Source: Fusobacteriota bacterium
GTDB taxonomy: Bacteria > Bacillota > TC1
Direction: 5' to 3'
Assembly: GCA_022615965.1 (NCBI GenBank)
Contig: JAKEGG010000044.1
Span: 1 to 32,544, forward strand
Length of the DNA: 32,544 nucleotides
The position numbers and the translations under genes are program-made. The notes under the pieces are model-generated. The model searched no databases, had not been told where the DNA came from, and saw only the letters and a program-made list of their open reading frames with translations. Shown in pieces: positions 24,635-32,544 of this stretch (the first letter of the stretch is position 1; every line of letters starts with the position of its first letter).

Positions 24635-24664
24635 AAAGCCTTAGAGTATATTCTCTAAGGCTTT
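24635..24664. terminator. Bidirectional terminator between convergent rhodanese and Crp-like genes
   Basis: aaagccttagag - tatatt - ctctaaggcttt, overlapping the 3' end of the Crp-like CDS. Confidence 0.85.
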
Positions 24665-25312
24665 TTTATTGATTATTTTGATCTGACCTCTCTTTTGTTC
24701 AATCAAACCTTTATTGGCAAATGACTTCAGTGTTCTCGATACTACCTCTCTGGCACTGCCAATATAGCTGGCAACCTCTTCATGAGTAAACCTGATGGAC
24801 TCATCAGAGGATGATTCTAATTCTATCAGGAGAAAATCTCTAAGTCTTGACTCGATACTGGAAAAAATAATTTTCTCCATCCCTGCCATAATGTCAGAAA
24901 ACTTGGAAACTACATTCTTTAAAGAAAAATTTTCAACTACCACATTTTCCCTGATCAACCTGCTAAAGGTAGAGATATTCAGTAGATAAACCTCTGTATC
25001 CTCTACTGATTCAATATAGACATCAAAAGAGATGCTTTGCAGCAAGCAGGCTGCAGAAAGAACACAAGCATCACCAGCCTCCAGCTTATATAAGGTGATC
25101 TCTCGCCCATCCTCAGATATGATATAGACCCTTAACTGTCCTGACTTAACCATCAAGACACCTATACACTCATACATAGGCGAAAGAATAATGTCACCTT
25201 TACCATAGTTAAAAGAGCTGATATTTTCCAGAAGCAGCTTTTGTTGCTCCTGGTTCAAGTCCTTAAAAAAGGTCAATGTTTCTATAATAAATTGTTTATC
25301 TACTGTTTTCAT
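24641..25312 (-). CDS. Crp/Fnr-family transcriptional regulator
   Basis: cNMP-binding-like beta-roll; HTH FTHEEVASYIGSAREVVSRTLKSFANKGLIEQKRGQI. Confidence 0.94.
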   Translation of the reverse strand: MKTVDKQFIIETLTFFKDLNQEQQKLLLENISSFNYGKGDIILSPMYECIGVLMVKSGQLRVYIISEDGREITLYKLEAGDACVLSAACLLQSISFDVYIESVEDTEVYLLNISTFSRLIRENVVVENFSLKNVVSKFSDIMAGMEKIIFSSIESRLRDFLLIELESSSDESIRFTHEEVASYIGSAREVVSRTLKSFANKGLIEQKRGQIKIINKKALENIL

Positions 25313-25314
25313 CC

Positions 25315-26865
25315 TTACCCCCTTATAGCTACGCCATGATCACCTTGATATTGACCAGATAAATAAGCTACCTGACCATTAACAATAACAGCCTTTATAC
25401 CAGTTGGTTCAATATTTTTATTTAAATAATCTTCTTTATGGCTGAATTCCTCCAGACTAAACAAAACTATATCGGCATGATATCCAGCCTTGATTTTACC
25501 TCTTTTTTCCAGAAGATCATCTCCAGTCATTTTATAAACTGCTTCCTCTAATGTCAAAACCTTAAGCTCTCTGACATATTTACTGATTATTTTTGGGAAA
25601 GCGCCAAAAAGTCTGGGATGGGGGTTATCACCACTAGGAAGACCATCGCTGCCAATAAAAGTATCAGGGTCTCTTAGGAGTTTTGTAATATCCTCTTCCA
25701 AAAACATCTTTTTCACAACCATAGCTGCATTGCCCTTTTCTTTGATCAAAATCTCTACCAGCTTATCAAAAGGTCTTTTTCCTTCCTTTTTAGCCATAGA
25801 TAAAAGATCTAAGCCATATGCAGGGACTAAAATATTTTCATAGCCTACCATTAAAAGAAAATTATCCCAACCTTCAAGCTGGTAATTTTCATCTGTTATT
25901 ATAGACTCAATTTCCTTTAATATGCCTTTATCACCATAGGTAGTGTAGTTTCGATACTGAGGTGGAAAAAGCTGATTTAAAAAAGTGCTGCCGTTGGTAT
26001 AGGGGTGCTGATCAACAGTTAATCTGATACCTTCAGACCTATATTCAGCGAGTTTATTTAAAATTATTTGAGCCGGCTGTCCATATTTCTCATAACCATA
26101 GGAACGGCAATGAGAAATATGTATCCTTACGCCTGTTTCTCTGCCTAGTTGAACAAACTCATCAATGGCAGCAAGCATATTTAGTCCATGACTTCTAATA
26201 TGAGCCATAATGATCCTGTCATATTTTTTAGTTATTCTTGCAAGAGCCAGTAGTTCCTCCTTATTAGCAAAAATACCTGGCAGATATGATAAGCCTAAAG
26301 ACAGACCTAAAGCTCCAGCCTTTAGCTCCTTTTCATAAAGAGCTGTCATCTTCGCTATTTCTCTAGAGTTTAAAACTTTCTCCTTAAAACCACAGACATT
26401 GCTTCTTAAGGTGCTCAAACCAATTAAAAAGCCCATATTATGAGACATTTTACCTTTTATCACCTTAACATATGAATCAAGATCTTCAAAATCCCATTTA
26501 TTTCCAATATCTCCAACTATCGGCTTGATATATTCCTGATAATCTTCCATTCCCTTTTTTGCTACTGGCAGGATACTGACGCCACACTGGCCAACTATTT
26601 CACTGGTTATACCTTGTCTTAATCTAGAGAGTCGATAATCTTCTCTTAAAAGAGGAAGGAGATCTCCATGGCTGTGGACATCTATAAAGCCAGGTGCAGC
26701 CACCAGTCCTGAAGCCTCCAGCTTTTTTTTGCCGTTTAAGCTATCTGTAGAGATACATATGATTCTATCTTCTTTGATACCTATATTTGCCTTTAAGCCT
26801 TTACTACCTGTACCATCTACCACTAAAGCTCCTTCAATCACCAAATCATACATTTTTAAGACCAA
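25315..26865 (-). CDS. N-acyl-D-amino-acid deacylase (D-aminoacylase) family
   Basis: APGFIDVHSHGD; GITSEIVGQCGVSILPV; MAHIRSHG; HISHCRSYG; FIGSDGLPSGDNPHPRLFGAFP. Confidence 0.93.
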   Translation of the reverse strand: MVLKMYDLVIEGALVVDGTGSKGLKANIGIKEDRIICISTDSLNGKKKLEASGLVAAPGFIDVHSHGDLLPLLREDYRLSRLRQGITSEIVGQCGVSILPVAKKGMEDYQEYIKPIVGDIGNKWDFEDLDSYVKVIKGKMSHNMGFLIGLSTLRSNVCGFKEKVLNSREIAKMTALYEKELKAGALGLSLGLSYLPGIFANKEELLALARITKKYDRIIMAHIRSHGLNMLAAIDEFVQLGRETGVRIHISHCRSYGYEKYGQPAQIILNKLAEYRSEGIRLTVDQHPYTNGSTFLNQLFPPQYRNYTTYGDKGILKEIESIITDENYQLEGWDNFLLMVGYENILVPAYGLDLLSMAKKEGKRPFDKLVEILIKEKGNAAMVVKKMFLEEDITKLLRDPDTFIGSDGLPSGDNPHPRLFGAFPKIISKYVRELKVLTLEEAVYKMTGDDLLEKRGKIKAGYHADIVLFSLEEFSHKEDYLNKNIEPTGIKAVIVNGQVAYLSGQYQGDHGVAIRG

Positions 26866-27562
26866 GAACTTTCTTCTTGTATTTTACTTCCAGAGGATTT
26901 TTCATACTCTTAAAGCGATAATCAGGATACTTGCCTTTAATAGCCCATTTAAGGAGAAGATTGACCAGTTCCTGATTATAGACCAATACTGGTCCTAATA
27001 TTCCTGTACCAATCATATGTTTATAGATAATTCCTTCGTCTCGATTATCAGAGCCCTTGATTATCCTGCCCAGGCTTCGATAATTATGTTTTTCCAGTTC
27101 TTTGTTTTCCAGAAAACCTGTAAGATAACACTGTCTACCTTCAAGAACAGACAATAAAACAATTTCTTCTATATCTTTCTCATCTAATTTTTCTACCTTT
27201 AGATCAAGAATCCCAAGTCCAGGTATCATTTCATCCTTCTTTTCCCAGTTTTCTCCTAATATATAGTAGCTGGTACCTGTAAATAAGGCCGCTCCACCTG
27301 AATCGATATATTGTTTTATCTTATCCTTGTAATCCTTCAGATAATCAAGAACCAGTCTTTTTCCTCTGCTATCTCCATTGCCTAGCAGTAATAAGTCTAT
27401 GCCCTCAAGAACCAACTCTTCGTTTAGGGAAAACTCTTTTAATTCATAAGGTATGCTTCTTTCCTCCAAAGCATTGACTAAGGGGAAAATATTGCCACTA
27501 TCAGAGTGATGATCCAGCTGTTCTTTAAATATATGTCCAATGATGATTTTCTTGTTTTCCAT
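26846..27562 (-). CDS. GatD-like type 1 glutamine amidotransferase homologue, predicted glutaminase-dead
   Basis: HHSDSGNIFPLVNALEERSI, LLLLGNGDSRGK, PGLGILDLKVE, DEGIIYKHMIGTGILGP follow the GatD layout, but Cys is Thr in ALFTGTSYYILG and His is Leu in GTGILGP. Confidence 0.8.
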   Translation of the reverse strand: MENKKIIIGHIFKEQLDHHSDSGNIFPLVNALEERSIPYELKEFSLNEELVLEGIDLLLLGNGDSRGKRLVLDYLKDYKDKIKQYIDSGGAALFTGTSYYILGENWEKKDEMIPGLGILDLKVEKLDEKDIEEIVLLSVLEGRQCYLTGFLENKELEKHNYRSLGRIIKGSDNRDEGIIYKHMIGTGILGPVLVYNQELVNLLLKWAIKGKYPDYRFKSMKNPLEVKYKKKVLGLKNV

Positions 27563-27563
27563 C

Positions 27564-28892
27564 TTAAATGCTCCACTTTTTTTCTAGCCTCTTAAGCTGT
27601 TTTTCAATACTTCTAGTATCATCATCCATATTGATGATATAGAGTTTTTTGCCTTTTCCGGAAAGTGCCAGTTTTAAAACGATATTCAGCTCCAGGTCAA
27701 CTATCAGCTTTCTTAAAGGCAGACCCATGGCTTTTAAGGCTAAAGCCATATTATAGGCTTTATCACCAGTTAGATATATTTTTCTGATTTTGTCTTTCTT
27801 TAAATCTTCAATATCGATATCATAAATAATATTGATATGTTCCTTTTCCTCATCATAAATCAATAAAAGATCAATGATTTCATCATCTTCACTTAAATCT
27901 TCAAAGGCTTGCTCTAAGGCACTTATATTCCAGGCTTCTTTAAGAAAAACCGGCTTTTTGATGTAAAAGGTATCTAAACTGTCATCATCGATCTCTATTT
28001 TCTCCAATGCTAGTTCAACTGATTCTAAACCTATTTCTGTTTCTTCAATAAAAGAAATCGCCGCCAGAATATTATAGACATTGTGAAAGCCCTGGGCAGG
28101 TAGATCAAATGGATATTCTTCACCTCTAACTAAAAGATCAAAATAAATACCATTTTTAAGTGAGGTATTAGTAGCCAGATAATCAATTGCAGGCTTGTCA
28201 AAAGCACAGTTTCCACAAGCATATTCTCCTAACTGACCAAAAAATCTATGAGAATAATTTAAACTACCTCCACAATTTGGACAATTCAAGGAACCTGGGA
28301 GTATCTCCTCCTCGACATAGCTATTATCAAGTCCATAATAAAGCTTCTGACCCTTAAATCCTTGACTTAAATAGGTAACCACTGGATCATCGCCATTTAA
28401 TATGAATATAGTTTTATCCAACTGTTCCATTCTATTTTTCCACGCACCAATATATTTTATAAATTCATGCTTGCGAGAAATTTGTTCTTTGAAAAGATTG
28501 GTTACTATCAGATATTCTGGACTTCTGTCCTTGAAGTATTCTAAACTAGCTGGATCTTTTATTTCAAAGATTAGGTAGTCGAACTTCTTTTTAGTAAACA
28601 GAGGCAGCCTTTTGATCAGGGCAGATAAAATTCCATAGCAATCTTTTTTGCTATGTTCATTAATTATGATATTCTTATCTTCCTTCTCTAAAATATCCTT
28701 AAGTAGATGTTTAACTGTAGTTTTACCATTAGTGCCGATAACCAGGACTATTTCACCTTGGGCTCGGGCCAGGAGTTTTGATATCAGGTCTTTATCTAGA
28801 CCTAATACCAGCTTGCTGCCAAAGGTATCTTCCTTAAAAAACAGGCTATCTATCTTTACTAGTATTTTCGCCAATAAGAGTTTAATAAACAC
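27564..28892 (-). CDS. MurT-like Mur ligase family protein
   Basis: VLVIGTNGKTTVKHLL P-loop; FNGDDP-like ILNGDDPVV; zinc ribbon CPNCGGSLNY...YACGNCAFDKP; adjacent to the GatD-like gene. Confidence 0.85.
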   Translation of the reverse strand: MFIKLLLAKILVKIDSLFFKEDTFGSKLVLGLDKDLISKLLARAQGEIVLVIGTNGKTTVKHLLKDILEKEDKNIIINEHSKKDCYGILSALIKRLPLFTKKKFDYLIFEIKDPASLEYFKDRSPEYLIVTNLFKEQISRKHEFIKYIGAWKNRMEQLDKTIFILNGDDPVVTYLSQGFKGQKLYYGLDNSYVEEEILPGSLNCPNCGGSLNYSHRFFGQLGEYACGNCAFDKPAIDYLATNTSLKNGIYFDLLVRGEEYPFDLPAQGFHNVYNILAAISFIEETEIGLESVELALEKIEIDDDSLDTFYIKKPVFLKEAWNISALEQAFEDLSEDDEIIDLLLIYDEEKEHINIIYDIDIEDLKKDKIRKIYLTGDKAYNMALALKAMGLPLRKLIVDLELNIVLKLALSGKGKKLYIINMDDDTRSIEKQLKRLEKKWSI

Positions 28893-28900
28893 TATTTCTC

Positions 28901-29728
28901 CTAACAGCTCACTGCCACAGTACCAGGCCCAACATGGGCACCTATGACTGCACCTATCTCAGAAATCATTTCAACCTTTTCTCCTAGTTCTTTTTCGATG
29001 ATAGCTGCAATTTCCATTACCAGTTCCTTATTTGCTGCATGGACCAAAATAAGTCTGTTGTCTTTATTTCTGTTTTTTCGTACATATTCCACCATTTCTT
29101 TGATAGCTTGTTTTTTGCCCTTGGCCTTGCCATAAGGCAGGATCTTGCCATCCTTGTATATTAGTAGGGCCTTGATATTTAAGATGCCTCCGATCACTGA
29201 CTGAGCAAAGCTGATCCTACCACCTTTTCTTAAATACTCTAGTGTGTCAAGCATGAAAAAAGCTTCTCTTTTATTAGACTTAGCTTCCACTACATTGATT
29301 ATTTCCTCAAGGTCAGCTCCCTTTTCTATCATCTCAGCAGCTTCTATGACCAGGTCAGTAATAAGCAAGGTTACTTGTCTGGAATCAATAACTTTGACCT
29401 TTCCTGGTTCAAATTCCTCCATGGCTTTGACAGCTTCATTATAGGTGCCACTTAAGCTAGAAGCTAAAGTTATGACCAGTACCTGGTCATCTTCATTAAC
29501 TAGCATTTCTCTGATAGCCTCGGCAAACTGTTCCCTGGTCACCTGTGAGGTTTTAGGTATTATGCCTTTTTCAGCTATTTTAGCATAAAATTCTTCAGAC
29601 GTGATATCTATCTGATCATAATAAAATTCATCATCAAAGCTGATACCAAAAGGAACCCATTTTATTCCGTATCGCTCTCTTAGCTCCAAAGGCATGTCGC
29701 TGGCAGTATCCAATAATATTTTAATCAT
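28901..29728 (-). CDS. DegV-family fatty-acid-binding protein
   Basis: IKILLDTASDMPLEL; ITLASSLSGTYNEAVKAMEEF; VIDSRQVT; IGAVIGAHVGPGTVAVSC. Confidence 0.96.
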   Translation of the reverse strand: MIKILLDTASDMPLELRERYGIKWVPFGISFDDEFYYDQIDITSEEFYAKIAEKGIIPKTSQVTREQFAEAIREMLVNEDDQVLVITLASSLSGTYNEAVKAMEEFEPGKVKVIDSRQVTLLITDLVIEAAEMIEKGADLEEIINVVEAKSNKREAFFMLDTLEYLRKGGRISFAQSVIGGILNIKALLIYKDGKILPYGKAKGKKQAIKEMVEYVRKNRNKDNRLILVHAANKELVMEIAAIIEKELGEKVEMISEIGAVIGAHVGPGTVAVSC

Positions 29729-30243: not shown

Positions 30244-31335
30244 TCAATCAATTATTTGACCTTTTTCAATATATTTTAACTTGATCAAAAAGCTACCTAC
30301 CAAAAGTCCAAAGCCAAAAATCTCAACGATCATTCCAACCAGGATATTTACGATTGGAATAGCCAGAATAACTCCCATCACAAAGGATAAAATCAATACC
30401 AGTATGATACTATTGCCGCTTTGCCACAACTTGATTTTACTTCCTAAATATTCACTTAAGGCTACTATGAATATGCCATTTGATAAATATATCATGGACA
30501 TTATCATAAACAGGAGTATCAAACCAAAAGCCAAACTAACTGTAGACATGATCAAAAATAAGGATAAAAATAAACCAGCAACTATACTAAGTAGACCATA
30601 AACAAAAAACACCTTGAACTTATTACCTGTAAAAACTACCAAAGTCTTGATTTTTGTTTCCTTGAATAAGAAGTTTAATAAAAACCAAATTACCAGATTG
30701 GAAAAGATAAAGCCAAAGAAAGACAAAACCTTGCTTACACCAATTCCATATAAATATTGAGAAAAATCAAAAAACTCTTCTTCTTGGACCTGCCCTTTGA
30801 CACTACTTCCAGCAATGCTTTCTTCCCCGGCATTATAGTGGAGGCTGCCTTCGATCAGACCTCTTATTACCATGGTATCAGCTGCTAAAATAGTTGTATC
30901 TCTAGTGATTTTGCCATATGCTTCAATATTTCTGGCGAAAATATAGGCACTTCTGGCTACTTGACTATTGTTTTCTAAAAGCACCTGATTGCTGGAAATC
31001 AAATACACATTTCCATCTATTTGCCCATTTATTACAATGTCAGCTGAAAAAGCCAGTAAATCACCTGTAATATGACCATTGACCTGTACCTGTTCCCCGT
31101 AGACTGCTACATTGCCTTCTACTAAACCATTAATTAAAGCCTTCTGGCTATTTATGATCAGATTCCCTGCTACTATACCATTATTTTCAAAATATATACC
31201 TGAATAAAAAATATCATTTTCGACCTTTTCATCCTGATATATGACTCTGGCACCTTCCTCAGATTTTCCAGCCCCTAAAAATATCAGTAACATCAGTGGC
31301 AACAATATTAATATAATTTTTCTAAACCTGGACAT
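30244..31335 (-). CDS. Polymer-forming (bactofilin/DUF583-like) protein with signal peptide and C-terminal TM domain
   Basis: Signal peptide KIILILLPLMLLIFLGAG; repeated NG.I.GN/VNGHITGDLLAFSADIVINGQIDGNVYL beta-helix pattern; about four C-terminal TM helices. Confidence 0.75.
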   Translation of the reverse strand: MSRFRKIILILLPLMLLIFLGAGKSEEGARVIYQDEKVENDIFYSGIYFENNGIVAGNLIINSQKALINGLVEGNVAVYGEQVQVNGHITGDLLAFSADIVINGQIDGNVYLISSNQVLLENNSQVARSAYIFARNIEAYGKITRDTTILAADTMVIRGLIEGSLHYNAGEESIAGSSVKGQVQEEEFFDFSQYLYGIGVSKVLSFFGFIFSNLVIWFLLNFLFKETKIKTLVVFTGNKFKVFFVYGLLSIVAGLFLSLFLIMSTVSLAFGLILLFMIMSMIYLSNGIFIVALSEYLGSKIKLWQSGNSIILVLILSFVMGVILAIPIVNILVGMIVEIFGFGLLVGSFLIKLKYIEKGQIID

Positions 31336-31343
31336 TGTCCCTC

Positions 31344-32516
31344 CTATTTTCCTTTTCTTACCAATCTTATTACAACAATCAGCAACAGCCCTGCTACAAA
31401 GATACCTAGAGAAGCCATTAGGTATTGGTTGGTATTGTAGGCTGGAAGAATCGTTACTTTATCTATCATGAATATCTGCTGGTAGACAGAGCCACTAAAA
31501 GCATCTGGCTGGTTGTCAGAAATCTGAATTTCCAATACATAGTTTCCTTCAGTAGTTAAATATTCTCCTGCTACAGTCAGGTAGTTATCTTTTATTTCTA
31601 GCTCTAATCTTTCCCTTTGGCCATCTGGACTGATCAGATAATATTCTAGCCCTGATCCTAGATTCAACCTATATATATCTAATGCCTTGATGCCAAAGTC
31701 TTCCCCAACTAATCCCTTATTGGCTATCTTGATTATTGCCTTTTGTTCTGTTAAGTCATAGTGCCCTGGAATACCTAATATTTTCTTATAGGCTCCTTCG
31801 TCAATATTATAGATATTATTCTCTGCCAGATCCAGGTAGAACAAGCTATCTAAGTCTTTATACAATGGAGCTAATGAAATCAATTTATTGCTTCTTAAAT
31901 CAAGGATCAATAGTTTTTTTAATCCCCCTAACTCCTCTGGCAAATCAGCGAGAATATTGTTATCTGCTAATAATACCTCTAACTTATTACAACCTTTTAA
32001 TCCAGCAGGAAGCCTTTCCAGACTATTAGAACTAATATCTATTTTTCTTAAATTAACTAGCTTTCCTAGTTCTTCAGATAAAATAGTAAGTTTATTAGCC
32101 CTTAGCGAAAGCTCTTCTAAAAGAATCAAGCCTCCTATTTCCTTTGGTAACTCAGATATTATATTTCCTCCAAGATAAAGAAATTGCAGCTGTTTGAGTG
32201 TTCCTATTTCCGCTGGCAAGGTTGTTATTCTGTTTTCTTCCAGGTTCAAGTATTTTAAGTTGCTGAATATTTCAATTCCCTTGACATTTTCAATGCTTTT
32301 ATCTTTTAAAAGCAGACTAGTGATCCCTGCTGCTTCATCCCTAGTAATGTAGTCTTCTTCTCCCTTATTTAGAATCAGCTTTATTTCACTTTTAAGACTA
32401 TTATCAGGAAACAGGTCTTTGACCTTACCTATTTCACCGTCTGCCTTGACCATAGGTGAAGGTATGAAAAATATGGTGAAAAATAATATTAACAACAGCA
32501 CCACTTTCTTTTTCAT
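31344..32516 (-). CDS. Leucine-rich-repeat surface protein with signal peptide and C-terminal TM anchor
   Basis: MKKKVVLLLILFFTIFFIPSPMVKA signal; tandem LRRs (LKYLNLEENRITTLPAEIGTLKQLQFLYLGGNIISELPKEIGGL...); C-term YLMASLGIFVAGLLLIVVIRLVRKGK. ATG at 32516 after GGAGG. Confidence 0.88.
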   Translation of the reverse strand: MKKKVVLLLILFFTIFFIPSPMVKADGEIGKVKDLFPDNSLKSEIKLILNKGEEDYITRDEAAGITSLLLKDKSIENVKGIEIFSNLKYLNLEENRITTLPAEIGTLKQLQFLYLGGNIISELPKEIGGLILLEELSLRANKLTILSEELGKLVNLRKIDISSNSLERLPAGLKGCNKLEVLLADNNILADLPEELGGLKKLLILDLRSNKLISLAPLYKDLDSLFYLDLAENNIYNIDEGAYKKILGIPGHYDLTEQKAIIKIANKGLVGEDFGIKALDIYRLNLGSGLEYYLISPDGQRERLELEIKDNYLTVAGEYLTTEGNYVLEIQISDNQPDAFSGSVYQQIFMIDKVTILPAYNTNQYLMASLGIFVAGLLLIVVIRLVRKGK

Positions 32517-32544
32517 CGAGCAAGCCTCCATTCTTTAAATATAC

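Follow-up and report, generated by a model that had tools for sequence, protein, structure and literature searches.

A MurT/GatD pair without glutaminase nucleophile and with altered ligase residues, conserved across a genus of Bacillota

The genes that we call murT' and gatD' lie in a stretch of 32,544 nucleotides, hereafter the window (positions 1 to 32,544 of contig JAKEGG010000044.1, assembly GCA_022615965.1), from a genome deposited as Fusobacteriota bacterium and placed by GTDB in the lineage TC1 of Bacillota. They encode a real, selected, genus-wide and catalytically rewritten version of MurT/GatD, the lipid II isoglutaminyl synthase. GatD' is unable to act as a Cys-dependent glutaminase, and it is close to certain that glutamine-dependent amidation by this pair has been lost. 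Judging from the residues of the two proteins, what serves the nucleotide has been preserved, and what serves the acceptor, the ammonia and the closure has disappeared. An initial annotation of the window had already described a catalytically dead GatD beside an altered MurT with an intact P-loop and four-Cys zinc ribbon, and these proposals are upheld here; the motifs and coordinates that it quoted, the open frames and the 1-nt gap are all present in the sequence. Beyond it, we found that the loss extends to the whole genus, that a canonical pair occupies this locus in the sister genus, and that GatDs without the catalytic Cys arose on at least six occasions among Bacillota.

The active-site motifs of GatD' read ALFTGTSYYILG in the Cys segment, GTGILGP and GFLENKELEKH. 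Columns were assigned with phmmer against 5n9m and 6gs2 and with a MAFFT alignment of 123 sequences, and residues are numbered as in S. aureus GatD and MurT unless stated otherwise (Table 1 gives the codons in the window). The Thr codon ACA (27278-27280) that the initial annotation had taken for the Cys position encodes Thr95, which belongs to the column of Ile93; the column of Cys94 is occupied by Gly96. Its placement of a Leu codon in the His189 column was borne out by the alignment. The window copy has thus neither Cys94 (Gly96) nor His189 (Leu189), and Arg128 is lost as well. Cys94 is found in all 105 canonical GatDs, G95 and Q98 each in 99% and R128 in 98% of them; all four are replaced in the five members of the genus, which come from separate assemblies and all have Gly in the Cys94 column. 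Their common losses further include E147, H149 and G151, and the Arg128 column reads K/E/E/E/V. We rejected an alternative Cys or Cys/His pair in GatD', since no Cys is conserved among the proteins of the five members and the nucleophile column is Gly. Sequencing error was also rejected, given the Gly in five independent assemblies, the open frames and the purifying selection described below. In published mutants, GatD C94G or C94S loses glutamine-dependent amidation and C94A loses glutaminase activity (PMC6113224, PMC5871853, PMC6085368, PMC3266927), and S. aureus GatD R128A is inactive (PMC5871853).

MurT' has EIKDPAS, EAWNIS and, for the DGRDTSWIYD segment, EKEHINIIYDID, together with an intact P-loop GTNGKTT and the four zinc-ribbon Cys. 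N85, D110, E111, G297, R298 and K315, each present in 100% of 111-113 canonical MurTs, are gone in all five members, as are G83, D134 (to E), D137, G347, S351 and W352. The N85 column reads K/D/D/D/E, that of D110 K/K/K/K/S and that of E111 D throughout; none of the five keeps the hinge Arg (R298), and at D349 the window copy has H, three congeners have E and one has D. Of all the changes, those at the acceptor site and hinge (N85, D110, E111, G297-R298, K315) speak most strongly for altered chemistry. MurT N85A is inactive, and so is D112S/E113S (S. pneumoniae numbering, equivalent to D110-E111) (PMC6085368); the activity of D349N is severely impaired (PMC6113224), and S. pneumoniae R304, the equivalent of R298, is a hinge thought to meet ATP (PMC6113224, PMC5871853, PMC6085368, PMC3266927).

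Other parts of MurT' have been kept. All five members retain N57-G58-K59-T60, E108, N264 (95% conserved in canonical MurTs), N267, R138, Q135, D355 and the four zinc Cys. Their nucleotide pocket (K59, T60, E108, N264, N267) is complete, and K59, T60 and E108 bind Mg-ATP in MurT (PMC6113224, PMC5871853, PMC6085368, PMC3266927). The subunit-contact positions G21, G190, P191, E225 and the aromatic at 354 are also kept. When the 46 MurT columns that hardly vary among canonical proteins are compared, 57% of them are conserved in the genus (24/46 in the window), 98% in the sister genus and 100% in the canonical copy of the window's own genome (see below). The acceptor loop has changed from N-x-x-G-A-N to N-x-H-S-K/R, with H80 and S81 invariant in the genus. 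This HS[KR] motif looks like a new constraint in the alignment, and S83, D111, E134, S137 and Y354 are likewise newly fixed across the genus.

All four congeners (G001-G004) have the pair, always with Cys94Gly, in a unit degV-murT'-gatD'-amidohydrolase-crp whose gene order is conserved in 4/4. The sister genus (G005) has degV-murT-gatD-amidohydrolase at the same locus, with a canonical GatD (CGGYQ, GTYLHGP, GFENHSGRT). In a mixture-model tree made after removing the GatD catalytic columns, the five Cys-less pairs form one clade (support 100/100) that is sister to G005 (100/99). This places the loss of the nucleophile between the split from G005 and the diversification of the genus. In scans of genome contigs, a single-protein query gave no match, and a five-sequence alignment used as a query matched the four congeners plus a single pair from distant Bacilli. 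One congener (L048, WTXA01000002.1) was deposited as "Fusobacteria bacterium" and the other three as Bacillota.

Both murT' and gatD' are under purifying selection. Among the four congeners, the ratios of nonsynonymous to synonymous change are 0.16-0.35 (pN/pS) and 0.08-0.19 (dN/dS) for gatD' and 0.16-0.25 and 0.09-0.14 for murT', close to the pN/pS of degV (0.11-0.17) and of the amidohydrolase gene (0.20-0.32); the YN00 omega on close pairs is 0.04-0.08. The window MurT' is 45-47% identical to those of the congeners, and the pN/pS between the window copy of the pair and the congeners is higher (0.43-0.57), with synonymous sites near saturation. This last value, together with the further loss of His189 in a genome that has a canonical pair, could be taken as slow decay of a redundant pair. 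We regard such decay as very unlikely, since the frames are open in five species, selection is purifying among congeners that have no canonical copy, and the ATP pocket and zinc Cys have been selectively retained. The preference of the initial annotation for neofunctionalisation over decay is therefore supported by the selection on the pair, but its suggestion of another nucleophile is not, there being no conserved Cys and a Gly in the column.

The second, canonical murT-gatD pair that the initial annotation had proposed to look for exists in the window's genome, on contig C31 (L041:2002-4082). It is inserted between two genes, one of 414 amino acids and one of ECF type, which are neighbors in the congeners; the flanks have a collinear arrangement across the five relatives. 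Most simply, the canonical pair was gained in the window's lineage, because the congeners have only ~0.15 kb between the flanks and no second MurT was found in them (G001, G002 and G004 are 94-98% complete). The placement of the C31 pair in the mixture-model tree has a support of 35/90, and the assembly of the window's genome is 80% complete. Contamination was rejected: the tetranucleotide correlation of C31 with the window is 0.974, compared with 0.95-0.96 for the window's own pieces, its CysS is 70-74% identical to those of the congeners and 61% to that of the sister genus, and its flanks are collinear. Mur ligases (PF02875) are present in every genome of the genus, and peptidoglycan synthesis is thus expected in it.

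The two proteins are still recognizable members of their families. We confirmed that a gene with Mur_ligase_M, zinc ribbon and MurT_C adjoins a GATase_3 gene (Pfam E-values 1.4e-16 for Mur_ligase_M, 3.8e-11 for MurT_C and 3.3e-8 for GATase_3), and MurT' matches the PDB sequences 7q8e/6gs2 at 5e-32. The best NCBIfam matches are the MurT and GatD equivalogs, yet both proteins stay far below the cut-offs (142 bits vs 800 for MurT', 101 bits vs 450 for GatD'). Structures were predicted on single chains. In its AlphaFold2 model (predicted local distance difference test, pLDDT, 92.5), GatD' is predicted to keep the GatD fold including the C-terminal helix (223-232), and its top Foldseek matches are the GatD chains of solved complexes (TM 0.82-0.88; 0.87 for 5n9m). 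The MurT' model (pLDDT 88.3) has MurT chains of solved complexes as its top matches. The MurE-like subunit of the plastid-encoded RNA polymerase is a case of a Mur ligase fold recruited outside peptidoglycan synthesis. This subunit, which is also among the Foldseek matches (8r6s_Q, 9epc_Q), differs from MurT' in that it belongs to another Mur family, is eukaryotic and has no GatD.

Compared with the synthases of S. aureus (6gs2), S. pneumoniae (6fqb) and S. pyogenes (9sq9), the pair has the same folds and gene order, the P-loop, the Mg ligand E108, the adenine-site Asn, the zinc ribbon, the GatD C-terminal helix and several contacts. It differs by the absence of Cys94, R128 and G95 in GatD' (and of His189 in the window copy) and of N85, D110, E111, G297-R298, K315 and W352 in MurT', and by scores far below the NCBIfam cut-offs. 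Its ancestor was a canonical glutamine-dependent lipid II amidotransferase in the same operon position. As the sequences show, in the ancestor of the genus GatD' lost the nucleophile, the oxyanion-hole glycine and the glutamine-capture residue, and MurT' the acceptor-carboxylate site, the second-Mg ligands and the hinge; the ATP pocket, the zinc ribbon and the main subunit-contact positions were retained. Residues and models suggest that a MurT-like heterodimer is most likely still formed and binds Mg-ATP. By analogy with the published mutants, the D-Glu of lipid II is likely no longer amidated, and because N85 and D110/E111 are gone, lipid II amidation has probably been lost altogether.

With about even confidence, we consider MurT'-GatD' to be an ATP-binding pseudoenzyme, non-catalytic, which could act as a sensor or a scaffold in the metabolism of cell-wall precursors. 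A possible target, although this is a guess, would be the co-encoded D-aminoacylase-type amidohydrolase. More tentatively, the complex, with both catalytic centers dismantled but with ATP binding and assembly kept, may sense ATP and thereby regulate or scaffold the metabolism of cell-wall precursors or D-amino acids; it would be an extreme case of the repeated loss of the GatD nucleophile in Bacillota. Several observations weigh against the pseudoenzyme reading. The retained ATP pocket is equally compatible with a working ligase; His189 is retained by the four congeners, with Leu in the window copy only, and Asp19 by all five members, and the glutaminase site could thus still be constrained in part; and some interface positions are altered (A228Y/L, P194A/V).

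A less probable but still credible possibility is that MurT'-GatD' functions as an acyl-phosphate ligase on another acceptor, with free ammonia or another small amine as donor, and that GatD' is kept for stability and closure. S. aureus MurT/GatD_C94G has lost its glutamine-dependent activity and keeps an NH3-dependent one at pH 8.5; MurT without GatD is inactive, GatD being required even for the NH3-dependent activity (PMC3266927). The complete Mg-ATP pocket, the retained His189 and Asp19, and an acceptor loop with a new conserved motif, unlike random drift, would also fit such a ligase. However, the hinge Gly-Arg, the second-Mg ligands and Lys315, which have been lost, are general parts of the ligase and are not specific to the acceptor. 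It is improbable that the pair still amidates the D-Glu of lipid II using free ammonia. GatD' does have the exact change of the NH3-active mutant (PMC3266927), vertebrate carbamoyl phosphate synthetase I (CPS I) is a precedent (PMC7657897), and the three nearly complete congener genomes have no other MurT. Yet the mutant's MurT is intact whereas MurT' is altered too, N85 and D110/E111 are required in S. pneumoniae MurT, the window's genome has acquired a separate canonical pair, and ammonia-driven amidation is a far better fit to Cys-less GatDs that have an intact MurT elsewhere.

Such pairs do exist. In a survey of the MurT loci of ~135 Bacillota genomes, Cys94 is missing in 18 of 124 paired GatDs, and the mixture-model tree requires at least 6 independent losses. 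They are of two kinds. In the first (f29, f22, L022, L028), MurT is intact and keeps 96-100% of the near-invariant columns. The f29 clade (L117, L133, L135, L142) has as its sole GatD one with C changed to G and His kept, and its MurT catalytic residues are intact. In f22 (L092, L093), whose sister L096 is canonical, GatD has C changed to A/S and H to Q; a full MurT sequence was available for L093 only, with its residues intact. In L028 there is a Cys one position off, which makes the nucleophile alignment ambiguous. In the second kind, MurT is altered: it comprises the genus of the window and another clade (L051, L084, L086, L087, L088), which has lost the DGRD segment and mostly kept N85, D110 and R298. 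Except in the window's genome, no second MurT was seen in the Cys-less genomes of the survey; G245 has two MurT matches near contig ends, possibly fragments.

Two pairs of this other clade have features of their own. A distant Bacilli pair at L051:7989-10029, from a metagenome-assembled genome of roe deer reticulum, has both Cys to Gly and His to Leu in GatD, the same double change as in the window, which arose independently. At L087:632-4502, GatD has neither Cys nor His and MurT lacks the Gly-Arg hinge; within 9 nt downstream lies an AsnB-like class II amidotransferase (start MCGIAGFF), a possible alternative glutaminase partner.

The pairs of the first kind are probably ammonia-driven lipid II amidases. 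This prediction is based on the NH3 activity kept by C94G (PMC3266927) and on vertebrate CPS I, an ammonia-using enzyme whose glutaminase part no longer has its Cys (PMC7657897). CPS I has, like MurT'-GatD', kept a class I glutaminase part despite the loss of the Cys, but its synthetase is active with ammonia whereas MurT' has probably lost the ancestral reaction. A dead glutaminase beside an intact synthetase site is not what we found in the window, where MurT' keeps 24/46 near-invariant columns compared with 98-100% in the f29 and f22 pairs, and CPS I is the better parallel for the latter. Divergent relatives of MurT are also described in pseudomurein archaea (PMC11915815), likened here by description and not by alignment; the archaea with only MurT-like proteins have no GatD, whereas GatD' has been kept.

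The neighborhood of the pair gives some indication of its context. The distances along degV-murT'-gatD'-amidohydrolase-crp (8, 1, -8 and 2 nt) are so short that they suggest a single transcription unit. The amidohydrolase matches D-aminoacylase 1m7j (4e-63) and N-acyl-D-Glu deacylase 3gip (8e-58) in the PDB and adjoins the murT-gatD locus in five related genomes, among them that of the sister genus, where the pair is canonical. This neighbor thus indicates a link with the metabolism of D-amino acids or muropeptides, with no substrate named. Positions 30244-32531 of the window encode a membrane protein with a bactofilin domain and a protein with leucine-rich repeats, which adjoin the unit in congeners as well and whose copies there are just 35-39% identical to those of the window.

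Table 1. Genes of the unit and codons of key residues in the window (coordinates are window positions; residues in the first column follow the window proteins)
Feature	Position	Strand	Remarks
degV	28901-29728	-	opens the conserved unit; 8-nt gap to murT'
murT'	27564-28892	-	GTG start behind an AGGAG site; 442 amino acids; Mur ligase central domain, zinc ribbon and MurT_C domain
MurT' Lys57-Thr58 (P-loop)	28719-28724	-	K59, T60; retained
MurT' Lys83	28644-28646	-	column of acceptor-carboxylate Asn85
MurT' Glu110	28563-28565	-	Mg-ATP ligand E108; retained
MurT' Lys112-Asp113	28554-28559	-	D110-E111, second-Mg ligands
MurT' Cys204, 207, 226, 229 (zinc ribbon)	28206-28283	-	retained
MurT' Asp304-Ser305	27978-27983	-	hinge G297-R298
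MurT' His352	27837-27839	-	column of D349, third triad residue, supplied by MurT
gatD'	26846-27562	-	ATG start; 238 amino acids; fold of a class I glutaminase, catalytic residues missing
GatD' Gly96 (GGT)	27275-27277	-	column of catalytic Cys94; both alignments agree
GatD' Lys129	27176-27178	-	column of glutamine-capturing Arg128
GatD' Leu189	26996-26998	-	column of catalytic His189
D-aminoacylase-family amidohydrolase	25315-26853	-	ATG overlaps the 3' end of gatD' by 8 nt
Crp-family regulator	24641-25312	-	final gene of the unit; 2-nt gap

Finally, these results bear on how the MurT/GatD family is viewed. The complex, essential in several pathogens, is under study as a drug target, and the literature views GatD as a Cys-dependent glutaminase. 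We found no description of a natural Cys-less GatD or of a MurT pseudoenzyme in the freely accessible papers searched. Several of the natural losses reproduce exactly the C94G substitution that was engineered in 2012, and the NH3-dependent activity kept by that mutant becomes a testable prediction for wild bacteria. The pair in the window is a further step, since residues of the ligase are lost too, and it raises the question of why a disarmed complex stays under selection.

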